From Agarivorans aestuarii (lineage in GTDB: Bacteria; Pseudomonadota; Gammaproteobacteria; Enterobacterales; Celerinatantimonadaceae), in assembly GCF_019670125.1 (NCBI RefSeq), contig NZ_AP023033.1, forward strand, positions 2,531,001 to 2,595,000: a stretch of 64,000 bases of DNA, in the 5' to 3' direction. A program made the position numbers and the translations under genes. Below, piece after piece: positions 21,511 through 61,663 of the stretch (within the stretch, counting starts at the first letter, position 1; the number at the start of each line of letters is the position of its first letter). The notes below the pieces were generated by a model. That model was not told where the DNA came from, did no database searches, and saw nothing but the letters and a program-made list of their open reading frames with translations.

Positions 21511-21930
21511 CTAACTCACCTGCTTATAGCAACTATGTAGATGTTTATCGATGCCCGCTAAGACCTCTTCACGAGTAATTAGGCCCAGTAACTTGCCCTG
21601 CTCGATGACCGGATACATTTTGGGTTTTTGCATTAACATGCTTTGGGCGAGTTCTAAAATACTAGTTTCAGGGCCAACGCTTAGCACATCACAGCGCATT
21701 AAATCTTCAACTAACGAGACCGTTTCACAATGATATGTAGCTTCAAGCAAACTCTTTAAGCAGTCTTGCTCGGAGATCCAACCGATAACGTGCTTTTGTT
21801 CATCAATCACTGGAGCACCTAGTTGTTTATGTTCTAGCAAGCTATGTACAACTTCTGCGATGGGTTGTTTTGCGGTAAAGCAAACCGGGCGCATTAACAT
21901 GTAATCGCGCACTTTGAGGTTCTCGGGCAT
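21511..21930 (-). CDS. CBS-domain pair protein
   Basis: A 139-residue soluble protein made almost entirely of two CBS motifs (roughly residues 8-65 and 75-132). VRDYMLMRPVCFTAKQPIAEV opens the first and LMRCDVLSVGPETSILELAQ the second. CBS pairs bind adenosyl nucleotides such as AMP or ATP and act as energy sensors. The partner is unknown here. I chose the ATG at 21930 (MPENLKVRDYM), which has an AGGAG site 9 bases upstream; an upstream extension to 22008 looks unrelated. It precedes hrpA but is separated by a terminator hairpin. Confidence 0.85.
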   Translation of the reverse strand: MPENLKVRDYMLMRPVCFTAKQPIAEVVHSLLEHKQLGAPVIDEQKHVIGWISEQDCLKSLLEATYHCETVSLVEDLMRCDVLSVGPETSILELAQSMLMQKPKMYPVIEQGKLLGLITREEVLAGIDKHLHSCYKQVS

Positions 21931-22029: not shown

Positions 22030-22084
22030 AATTTCACCCATTTGGGTAATGGTGAGAATAATAACCGAGGAGTAGTATTTATAT
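22030..22084 (+). promoter_or_regulatory. Promoter with upstream palindrome, sRNA copy 1
   Basis: The palindrome ACCCATTTGGGT (22036-22047), flanked by TCACC and GGTGA, stands 26 positions before a -10-like TAGTAT (22073-22078). The start is expected about 22085. There is no good -35 box (TGGTGA at the right place), so the palindrome, centred near -43, is probably an activator site. The same layout recurs before copies 2 and 3. Confidence 0.65.
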
Positions 22085-22192
22085 CGACTGAGCTGCTAAC
22101 TCAGTCATCGCGTTTAGTTACCTATTGCTGTGTACATCTTTACACAAATTTATGCAGGCCCTTTGTTATCCAATGCAAAGGGTCTTTTTTTT
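22085..22192 (+). ncRNA. Tandem small RNA, copy 1
   Basis: A gene for a putative 108-nt RNA, not a protein. It begins with hairpin GACTGAG/CTCAGTC, followed by an unpaired core GTTACCTATTGCTGTGTA identical in all three copies. A small hairpin TGTGTA/TACACA and an intrinsic terminator (GCCCTTTG/CAAAGGGT plus eight T) close it. Stem sequences differ between copies while pairing is kept, which argues for a structured transcript. I do not recognise the family. It is not like Qrr, and has no GGA-rich loops of the CsrB kind. Ends are predicted only from the -10 box and the T-run. Confidence 0.75.
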
Positions 22193-22229
22193 ATCTTTAA
22201 TTTCATAAGCTTGAGGGGAATAAGCAGCC

Positions 22230-22284
22230 AATTTCACCCATTTGGGGAATGGTGAGAGAGTTAGTTAACAGATAGTATTTATCA
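22230..22284 (+). promoter_or_regulatory. Promoter with upstream palindrome, sRNA copy 2
   Basis: Palindrome variant ACCCATTTGGGG (22236-22247) and TAGTAT (22273-22278) stand at exactly the same spacing as in copy 1, with the flanking TCACC and GGTGA retained. Confidence 0.65.
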
Positions 22285-22390
22285 CGACTGAGTTGCTAAC
22301 TTAGTCACGCGTTTAGTTACCTATTGCTGTGTACAACCTTTACACAAATTTTACGCAAGCCCTTTTACTTATGTAAAAGGGCTTTTTTTT
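22285..22390 (+). ncRNA. Tandem small RNA, copy 2
   Basis: The second paralogue, about 106 nt. The first hairpin is GACTGAG/CTTAGTC (one G-U pair replaces the G-C of the other copies). The core GTTACCTATTGCTGTGTA is unchanged and the TGTGTA/TACACA hairpin has a different loop. The terminator stem AGCCCTTTTAC/GTAAAAGGGCT is 11 bp with eight T, and its upper part has changed on both arms relative to copies 1 and 3, a compensated change. It lies 200 bases after copy 1 and has its own promoter block, so the copies are separate transcription units. Confidence 0.75.
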
Positions 22391-22453
22391 GCTTTATTAA
22401 ACAGCTAGGGGAATGCAAGGCATTAAAATTTATGAAAAATTTATTAATTTTCA

Positions 22454-22508
22454 AATTTCACCCATTTGGGTAATAGCCTGATTAGACTAGGGTGGTTATT
22501 ATTTGTCT
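22454..22508 (+). promoter_or_regulatory. Promoter with upstream palindrome, sRNA copy 3
   Basis: Palindrome ACCCATTTGGGT (22460-22471) and -10-like TATTAT (22497-22502), again 26 positions apart. The sequence between them differs from copies 1 and 2, so the conserved spacing is not just recent duplication. Confidence 0.65.
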
Positions 22509-22611
22509 CGACTGAGTCGCTAACTCAGTCACGCGTTTAGTTACCTATTGCTGTGTAAACATTACACGATTATGCAAGCCCTTTGCTCTTGAGCAAAGGG
22601 CTCTTTTTTTT
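22509..22611 (+). ncRNA. Tandem small RNA, copy 3
   Basis: The third paralogue, about 103 nt. Hairpin GACTGAG/CTCAGTC has loop TCGCTAA; the identical core follows. The middle TGTGTA hairpin is shortened (TGTGTAAACATTACACG), and the terminator stem AGCCCTTTGCTC/GAGCAAAGGGCT is 12 bp followed by CTCTTTTTTTT. Its T-run ends two bases before the pyrC stop codon on the opposite strand, so it converges with pyrC. Confidence 0.75.
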
Positions 22612-22613
22612 GC

Positions 22614-23648
22614 CTATTTAACTTGCCAGTTTAAGGTTTCGTTAGCAAAAAATGGCACTAAGTTTTCGTCTTCAACCTTAACTGAACCAGGCACCTGCCA
22701 AGCTTCTTTACTTAATGTAATGGTATCGGTGTTTCTTGGTAGGCCATAAAAATCTGGGCCATTAAAGCTGGCAAAGGCTTCAAGTTTATCCAATATTCCT
22801 AGTTGCTCAAAAATTTCGGCATACAATTCAATGGCAGCTGGTGCACTGTAACAACCTGCACAACCACAGGCACTTTCTTTAGCCCCTTGAACATGAGGAG
22901 CCGAATCCGTTCCTAAGAATATCTTTTTGGTACCACTCGCTACGGCTTGCTGTAACGCTTGTTGGTGAGTTTGACGTTTAAGCACGGGTAAACAGTAGTT
23001 ATGAGGGCGTAAGCCCCCTGCTAGCAAATGATTACGGTTGTACATCAAATGCTGTGGCGTAATGGTGGCAGCTACATTGTCTGGCGCATTTAATACAAAC
23101 TCTGCGGCTTCAGCAGTAGTTATGTGCTCAAAGACAATTTTAAGATTAGGCAGTGACTCCACTAAACCACGCATGTGAGCGTCAATAAATGCTGCTTCTC
23201 TATCAAAGATATCGATATCGGCGTGAGTCACCTCGCCGTGAACTAACAGCAACAAACCATGTTCTGCCATTGCTTCAAATACTGGTCGAAGAGCGGCAAC
23301 GTCGGTTACGCCATGGGCAGAGTTAGTAGTGGCATTGGCAGGATACAATTTACATGCTTTAACAATTCCACTTGCCGCAGCTTCTGCGATTATCTCAGGA
23401 GTAGTGGCATCGGTTAAATAAAGCGTCATCAATGGTTCAAACTGGCTTTGCTCAGGAAGCGCCTGTTTAATGCGCTGATAATAAGCTTGAGCATCAGCAA
23501 CTTGAGTGACAGGTGGGGTTAGATTAGGCATGATGATGGCACGAGAAAAGTGCTTAGCGGTAGCATTTGCTGCTACCTCTAGCATGGCGCCATCGCGTAA
23601 GTGAAGATGCCAATCGTCTGGTCTTGTTATGGTAAGCGTTTGAGTCAC
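22614..23648 (-). CDS. pyrC: Dihydroorotase
   Basis: Zinc enzyme that cyclises carbamoyl aspartate to dihydroorotate, third step of UMP synthesis. The metal-binding HxH is in [10 protein letters not shown], the carboxylated Lys in [15 protein letters not shown], histidines in LLVHGEVTH and VFEHITT, and the catalytic Asp in FLGTDSAPH. The 344-residue length fits the class II (E. coli PyrC) type. The start is GTG at 23648 with AGGGGA about 9 bases upstream. The 275-bp inverted-repeat element lies upstream, beginning about 75 bases before the start codon, so it could affect the pyrC promoter. Confidence 0.96.
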
Positions 23649-23722: not shown

Positions 23723-23997
23723 GGGGCTGTTTATCTTTCGCGGTTAAATTTTGTTCGCGGGAAAATCGTTTTAGGCGCGGCAAGGACTGTGTAGCCTAGC
23801 TTCCTAGGTGAATACGCCTTAACTTAAATTCACCTAAATACGGCATAAAACGATTTTAGCCGAACCCTTCGGGCAGCGTTTGTGGCTTATCTCTACTGCG
23901 TAATCAGCCTCCCATGTAGGCTAACACATCAAAGCTTCTGCTTTGTATAAATAAGCCACAAATTGCTGCAAAATCAGCTCGAAAGATAAACAGCCCC
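23723..23997. mobile_element. MITE-like element with 18-bp terminal inverted repeats
   Basis: The ends GGGGCTGTTTATCTTTCG (23723-23740) and its exact reverse complement (23980-23997) bound 275 bp with no coding capacity. Inside are further inverted repeats: AAAATCGTTTTA with TAAAACGATTTT, TAGGTGAAT with ATTCACCTA, and TTTGTGGCTTAT (23879-23890) with ATAAGCCACAAA (23951-23962). The whole could fold into nested hairpins. No clear target duplication is visible. It is probably a non-autonomous transposon derivative; no transposase is present in the window. Confidence 0.75.
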
Positions 23998-60733: not shown

Positions 60734-61663
60734 ATGAAAATAAAAACTCTTGTTGTTATGATGCTAGGCGCGCTAAGCACCAGCCTATCTGCGGCCACGA
60801 CTACGCCAGCAGAAGTATTAGATCTATCTTGTTGGAAAGTAACCTTACCAGTGTCTTTGGACAATGGTGACCGCCCTACAGAGTTTAGCGAGAAAGAGAT
60901 TGCTAAAGGCGCAATGCATGAAGATTACTTTTACGTAGACGAAGCTAAAGATGGTGTGGTTTTTCGCTCACCGATTCAAGGCATTAAAACCTCTAAAAAT
61001 ACCAAGTATGTTCGCTCAGAACTTCGTGAAATGATGCGCTGTGGTGATACTAGCCATAAAACAAAAGGCGTTAATGGCAACAACTGGGTATTTAGTCATA
61101 ACGAGTCGGCTGAGTCATTAAAAAATGCGGCGGGTGTAGACGGTAACTTAAAAGCGACCTTATCTGTCGATCACGTCACCTCTACCGGTGAAATTTGGCA
61201 ACAAGGTCGAGTAATTATTGGCCAAATTCATGCCCCAGATGATGAGCCAGTTAAAATCTACTACCGCAAACTGCCTAACCATGAAACGGGTTCGGTATGG
61301 ATTAGTCATGAGCCAAATGGTGGAGACGACATAATTTTTCCGATGATTGGCCCAACTAAGCCAAATTACTGGAAGCAAAAAGATAAAGATATTCCAAAGT
61401 CATACAATGATGGTATCGCCTTAGGTGAAAAATTCTCCTACGAGATTGATATTAATGGCTCTGACATGACGGTAACGATTAGCCGCGAAGGTAAAGCCGA
61501 CGTTGTACAAAAGGTTGATATGCAGAACTCAGGCTACGGCTTGAAAGATCAGTGGATGTATTTTAAAGCTGGTGTTTATAACCAAAACCGTTCTGGCAAC
61601 GCAGAAGACTATGTTCAAGCAACCTTCTACAGCTTAGATGTAAGCCACGGCTCTGCTAAATAG
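60734..61663 (+). CDS. Alginate lyase, polysaccharide lyase family 7
   Basis: A secreted enzyme of 309 residues that cleaves alginate by beta-elimination. Signal peptide MKIKTLVVMMLGALSTSLSA, then a single PL7 jelly-roll. The three PL7 blocks are VRSELREM (about residues 97-104), GQIHAP, and YFKAGVYNQN; the Ile in QIH is often linked to action on polyguluronate or mixed blocks. No carbohydrate-binding module is attached. AGGTAAG precedes the ATG. It carries its own terminator. It is the only alginate lyase in the window; a SSS symporter, SDR and regulator of the likely pathway are 10-12 kb away. Confidence 0.93.
   Translation: MKIKTLVVMMLGALSTSLSAATTTPAEVLDLSCWKVTLPVSLDNGDRPTEFSEKEIAKGAMHEDYFYVDEAKDGVVFRSPIQGIKTSKNTKYVRSELREMMRCGDTSHKTKGVNGNNWVFSHNESAESLKNAAGVDGNLKATLSVDHVTSTGEIWQQGRVIIGQIHAPDDEPVKIYYRKLPNHETGSVWISHEPNGGDDIIFPMIGPTKPNYWKQKDKDIPKSYNDGIALGEKFSYEIDINGSDMTVTISREGKADVVQKVDMQNSGYGLKDQWMYFKAGVYNQNRSGNAEDYVQATFYSLDVSHGSAK

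Follow-up and report, generated by a model that had tools for sequence, protein, structure and literature searches.

What are the three closely similar units that follow one another at positions 22030–22611 of the analysed stretch of Agarivorans aestuarii DNA (the window, 64,000 nucleotides in length), how far do they extend beyond this genome and what function might they have?

Organization and conservation of the array

A preliminary description of the locus had reported three tandem paralogous units with periods of 200 and 224 bases, and they were located as described. On the forward strand, positions 22030–22611 hold three head-to-tail predicted small-RNA genes of approximately 103–108 nt each, with start-to-start spacings of 200 (199 when measured on the core) and 224 bases. 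In each unit, a box (AATTTCACCCATTTGGGNAAT) is separated by 22 poorly conserved bases from a −10-like hexamer (TAGTAT, TAGTAT and TATTAT in copies 1, 2 and 3, respectively), after which come a 7-bp hairpin 1, the core, a 6-bp hairpin 2 and a strong intrinsic terminator. All the elements named beforehand (palindrome, −10-like box, GACTGAG hairpin, core, TGTGTA hairpin and terminator) were found in the three copies, and the identity of the core runs beyond the stretch first indicated, with CGCGTTTAGTTACCTATTGCTGTGTA common to all of them. The features of the array are the following, CM denoting the covariance model score:

22030–22050, + strand, copy 1 promoter box AATTTCACCCATTTGGGTAAT, putative regulator site (sequence comparison)
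22073–22078, + strand, copy 1 −10 hexamer TAGTAT (function inferred)
22085–22192, + strand, copy 1 predicted sRNA (start inferred, end at the terminator T-run; CM 114.8 bits)
22086–22106, + strand, copy 1 hairpin 1 (folding and pairing across units)
22109–22128, + strand, copy 1 invariant core CGCGTTTAGTTACCTATTGC, presumed seed (conservation)
22129–22146, + strand, copy 1 hairpin 2, TGTGTA/TACACA (folding and pairing across units)
22156–22192, + strand, copy 1 intrinsic terminator (predicted)
22230–22250, + strand, copy 2 promoter box (sequence comparison)
22273–22278, + strand, copy 2 −10 hexamer TAGTAT (function inferred)
22285–22390, + strand, copy 2 predicted sRNA (CM 111.4 bits)
22308–22327, + strand, copy 2 invariant core (conservation)
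22357–22390, + strand, copy 2 intrinsic terminator (predicted)
22454–22474, + strand, copy 3 promoter box (sequence comparison)
22497–22502, + strand, copy 3 −10 hexamer TATTAT (function inferred)
22509–22611, + strand, copy 3 predicted sRNA (CM 109.7 bits)
22532–22551, + strand, copy 3 invariant core (conservation)
22577–22611, + strand, copy 3 intrinsic terminator (predicted)

ORFs of 20–53 amino acids are present over the array; a coding (peptide) reading was discarded because indels between the copies disrupt any common reading frame. No tRNA was detected across the whole window.

The folding z-scores of copies 1, 2 and 3 were −5.03, −6.68 and −4.88, respectively, and none of the 200 shuffles of each copy was equal or better. 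Across the 14 distinct units of seven Agarivorans genomes, standard pairs amounted to 98.7% of 307 pair cells vs. 95.1% in shuffles, and double-sided changes were found in 12 pair cells vs. 3.8 in shuffles (0 of 500 shuffles as high in both cases). Neither the count of doubly changed pairs (3) nor that of further pair types (10) exceeded shuffles (187 and 424 of 500 as high, respectively). Covariation in the sRNA helices is present but modest. The terminator stems vary among copies and yet remain paired, as had been proposed; the claim that covariation supports a structured RNA holds for standard pairs and double-sided cells but not for the counts of covarying pairs and pair types, and this argument is weaker than claimed. 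A possible closing helix, GCGU/AYGC, which would loop out the core, is paired in 14 of 14 units, with one-sided G-C/G-U alternation only.

The conservation mosaic is a stronger argument than covariation. Mean pairwise identity over the 19 units found in the genus reached 1.00 in the core. It was also high in the arms of hairpin 2 (0.98 and 0.93, vs. 0.49 in the loop), the box (0.94), hairpin 1 (0.90) and the surroundings of the −10 hexamer (0.81), and intermediate in the linker that precedes the terminator (0.79) and in the terminator itself (0.67). The lowest values corresponded to the sequence upstream (0.35), the stretch from the box to the −10 hexamer (0.40) and the sequence 3′ of the terminator (0.46). 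In addition, the distance from the GGG of the box to hairpin 1 is 38 nt in 19/19 units and the terminator U-tract is of 7 or 8 residues in all of them. Predicted folding leaves the core mostly unpaired or within weak helices.

Distribution of the family and history of the locus

The family was found in all seven Agarivorans genomes examined (G000 to G006), at one array locus per genome, with 3, 3, 4, 3, 3, 2 and 1 copies, respectively, that is, 19 in total. The core has not been lost in relatives, being retained in 19/19 copies and 7/7 genomes of the genus. When the covariance model was run on 12 genomes of the taxonomic family, these seven scored 107–121 bits and the five others gave a single weak match (G010; 26.7 bits over 63 nt, with an E-value of 0.064, or 0.0025 in a smaller search), where the 60 bases examined did not contain the core and which was therefore rejected as a member. 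With stricter filters, the model returned seven matches among 295 genomes of the order, all from Agarivorans. The core pattern, with up to three mismatches allowed, gave 19 zero-mismatch matches in 394 genomes of the order, all in Agarivorans, together with four three-mismatch matches elsewhere; the control pattern had scattered matches as well. Neither the three-mismatch core matches of four genomes of the order (G030, G046, G294 and G306) nor the exact core matches in four unrelated genome contigs and two viral contigs had a model match at E-values up to 1. In G051, a 33-nt blastn match was limited to the terminator end of the query and was not accompanied by a model match. The array sequence had no match in 72,556 plasmid and 50,697 phage records, and it must be noted that the searches outside the genus could overlook strongly diverged relatives.

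The preliminary description had considered the family unrecognised, and a search of the whole window against Rfam 15 agreed with this, yielding no match at gathering thresholds. At permissive E-values there were 24 sub-threshold matches, of which the highest score was 26.4 bits vs. a cut-off of 65, while the lowest E-value (0.0019; 21.3 bits vs. 40) corresponded to the minus strand. Judging by titles, no sRNA work on Agarivorans was found in the literature. The best reading of these comparisons is that the array represents a new sRNA family restricted to Agarivorans, sibling sRNAs as such being already known. Less usual are its range of one to four copies at a single locus and the fact that box and sRNA gene go together one to one almost exclusively.

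In 7/7 genomes, the same amidohydrolase gene (Pfam), which we take to be pyrC-like, borders the array with its 3′ end. On the other flank, six of the seven genomes have a CBS-domain gene and a helicase gene, presumably HrpA-like, neither of which was found in the stretch examined of G006. In two genomes of the sister genus (G009 and G011), the pyrC-like and helicase genes are adjacent, with aligned ends somewhat less than 200 bp apart, and neither an sRNA nor a CBS gene was found at this place. The CBS-domain gene encodes a small protein, is located in the window at 21511–21930, between the array and the HrpA-like helicase gene, and its arrival may have coincided with that of the sRNA locus.

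In a tree of the 19 units, copies 1, 2 and 3 of four close genomes grouped by position (support 91/93, 99/95 and 98/99, respectively) and the four copies of G002 formed their own group (90/83), with weak deeper forks. The position groups and the separate G002 group indicate that either copy number changed more than once or the copies were homogenised. From the sequence comparison, the variation from one to four copies is attributed to tandem duplication, homogenisation being the alternative for the tree groups.

Further along the window, a 275-bp stretch (23723–23997), which has the pyrC-like gene on one side and a hybrid sensor kinase gene on the other, is bounded by perfect 18-nt inverted repeats (GGGGCTGTTTATCTTTCG and CGAAAGATAAACAGCCCC). 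It contains two nested inverted repeats and resembles a small mobile or palindromic element of the non-coding type.

The promoter box and known sibling sRNAs

The box pattern WTCACCCATTTGGG had 19 exact matches in the seven Agarivorans genomes, each upstream of one sRNA copy, and TCACCCATTTGGGNAAT had 20 matches in 394 genomes of the order, 19 of which were the array promoters. The lone box outside the genus (G149) had no core within 350 nt on its 3′ side and no model match at E-values up to 1. That there is one box per sRNA copy, and nearly none elsewhere, suggests one dedicated regulator. Setting the start 7 nt after the −10 hexamer, the box is centred near −43.5, which is the position of class II activators, and there is no conserved −35 hexamer. 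This suggests that the putative regulator is an activator, although it may instead be a repressor. A literature search with three spellings of the box sequence found no paper.

With one mismatch allowed, WTCACCCATTTGGG had 47 matches in the seven genomes vs. 38 for a reversed control pattern. The five such sites of G000 are distributed inside ORFs (three) and between ORFs (two), and some of them recur in other Agarivorans genomes, so there may be further weak sites of the regulator in the genus. One of these variants, TTCACCCATTTGGA (G000:C1:2046458–2046471), sits between ORFs, upstream of one of them, and recurs in G001, G003, G004 and G005; it may be a second, weak site for this regulator.

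Sibling sRNAs, either tandem or dispersed, have been reviewed for OmrA/B, PrrF, AbcR, Qrr, the streptococcal csRNAs (2–6 siblings) and others (PMC4211561). As described in that review, OmrA (88 nt) and OmrB (82 nt) are encoded by head-to-tail genes, PrrF1 and PrrF2 are in tandem in P. aeruginosa and are 95% identical, the siblings of both pairs are thought to come from duplication, and some species have only one Omr sRNA (PMC4211561). The array is alike in its head-to-tail siblings but differs from these pairs in sequence, in having no Rfam match and in reaching four copies. Moreover, it shares an internal core, whereas in OmrA and OmrB the first 21 and the last 35 nt are common to both (PMC4211561). 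The Fur-like mark of PrrF and RyhB, searched for as a single string with exact matching (GATAATGAT), was absent from 19/19 units with their promoter. The Qrr RNAs of Vibrio resemble the array in that there are several of them, highly similar to one another and differing in number between species, but their genes are dispersed and LuxO-activated, according to the same review (PMC4211561), while those of the array are in tandem. In searches for exact strings, a LuxO-type site (TTGCA-N3-TGCAA) was found in 0 of 19 array promoters and a sigma-54-type element (GG-N10-GC) in 1 of 19; the promoters as a group do not have the Qrr pattern. The repeated GGA loops that mark CsrB/RsmZ are absent, as had been noted beforehand, with no GGA in 19/19 predicted RNAs.

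VqmR of Vibrio is a single-copy RNA unrelated to the array sRNAs. The likeness to it is functional only, in that the sRNA promoter has a GG/CC palindrome bound by an activator, VqmA (PMC8284805). That palindrome is given as GG-N6-CC in the vqmR promoter and as GG-N9-CC for a phage protein (PMC8284805), whereas in the array the order is reversed (CCCATTTGGG). A bolder proposal is that, in the manner of VqmA and VqmR and without relationship to them, a single transcription factor would have the sRNA promoter as its only strong genomic operator and would be read out entirely through the dosage-amplified array of one to four copies, the number of sRNA genes acting as an evolutionary tuning knob. 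We consider it tentative, with the odds somewhat against it.

Proposed mode of action and candidate targets

The reading that we favour, with a probability of nearly 0.8, is that the array comprises three sibling genes for trans-acting base-pairing sRNAs, which would be independent transcription units switched together by one regulator, and whose Hfq-loaded products would pair through the core with mRNAs and block their translation. It must be stressed that we infer transcription, activation, Hfq binding and mode of action from the sequence. A single regulator would bind the palindromic box, centred approximately 43 bp upstream of the presumed start, and switch all copies together. Each RNA of about 105 nt would consist of hairpin 1, the largely exposed invariant core, hairpin 2 and the terminator, whose tail of 7–8 U would load Hfq. 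The core (UUAGUUACCUAUUGC) would then pair with mRNAs, most plausibly at AGGU-type Shine-Dalgarno sequences, and additional copies would increase the dosage of the RNA or the speed of the response. In this regard, the 20-nt invariant core (short form, UUACCUAU) contains ACCU and could therefore cover AGGU-type ribosome-binding sites. G000 has an hfq gene (100.6 bits vs. a cut-off of 61.7), and the U-tract, this gene, the mostly unpaired core and the separate promoters together fit trans-acting base-pairing sRNAs. The array sRNAs thus probably belong to the Hfq-dependent base-pairing class. We infer the mechanism from resemblance to this class because the target searches failed.

A search with the 13-nt core complement (CAATAGGTAACTA), allowing at most one mismatch, gave 46 matches outside the array in the seven genomes vs. 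64 for a reversed control. Four of them were exact (two in G006 and one each in G005 and G002); three of these precede an ORF start by 1–41 nt and the fourth is antisense to an ORF, with no gene common to two genomes. In the core-complement sites common to four or five genomes, a mismatch falls mid-core, and these sites are either antisense to an ORF or located some 50 nt before a start. Pairing of the core with 359 gene starts (approximately 10% of the genome, with guessed start sites, so that ranks are not genome-wide) was not clearly better than that of shuffled cores, of which 13, 5 and 4 of 60 were equal or better on the mean, the 1% tail and the 5% tail, respectively.

Individual candidates were also rejected. 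A start presumably belonging to a ychF-like gene (AATAGGTATTATTATG), present in at least five of the seven genomes, ranked 188 of 359 when duplex energies were computed for the 21-nt core; with a longer query they ranged from −13.7 to −15.6 (unranked). The start (60734) of an alginate lyase gene (window 60734–61663; Pfam Alginate_lyase2, 224.7 bits) ranked 2 of 359 with structure costs counted. The complementarity of its ribosome-binding site (ATAGGTAA) to the core is present in G000 and G001 and absent in G004 and G005, and no full-length orthologue was found in the stretches examined of G002, G003 and G006.

That the target searches gave no convincing mRNA is in line with another explanation, namely that the RNAs are decoys whose core binds a protein (CsrB/RsmZ-like or other), which the copy number would titrate. 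The presence of several copies and the invariance of the core in 19/19 units fit this as well. However, the lack of GGA argues against a CsrA/RsmA decoy, each RNA has one core instead of many binding loops, and a long U-tract is typical of Hfq sRNAs, so we regard sequestration as improbable.

The same low probability is given to an element tied to its pyrC-like neighbour, in which the core would control pyrC translation or the array would have an effect on the pyrC 3′ end that it abuts in every genome. The pyrC-like gene (window 22614–23648, − strand) has a GTG start at 23648, where the core could form a bulged duplex (about 17 bp) in four of the seven genomes; its energy there is −19.7 kcal/mol, with rank 2 of 359 in G000 and 6 of 2000 shuffled cores as good. 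Nevertheless, the duplex is weaker in the other three genomes (−15.0, −15.0 and −12.3) with an unchanged core, and the start was rejected as a target on falling to rank 75 of 359 once structure costs were counted. Furthermore, the last terminator ends before pyrC, which is on the opposite strand.

Finally, tandem copies in varying number could point to a REP/MITE-like repeat or mobile element that is non-coding and has no regulatory function. This is very improbable given the single locus per genus genome, the lack of blastn matches elsewhere in the genome of the window and in the plasmid and phage records, and the divergence of the spacers as opposed to the conserved promoter and RNA parts.

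Read as sibling base-pairing sRNAs, the array adds an undescribed and well-delimited sRNA family from a lineage in which no sRNA work was found. The pattern of one box per copy can serve as bait for finding the regulator. Moreover, since related species have 1, 2, 3 and 4 copies at one locus, the question of why sibling sRNAs persist becomes directly testable.
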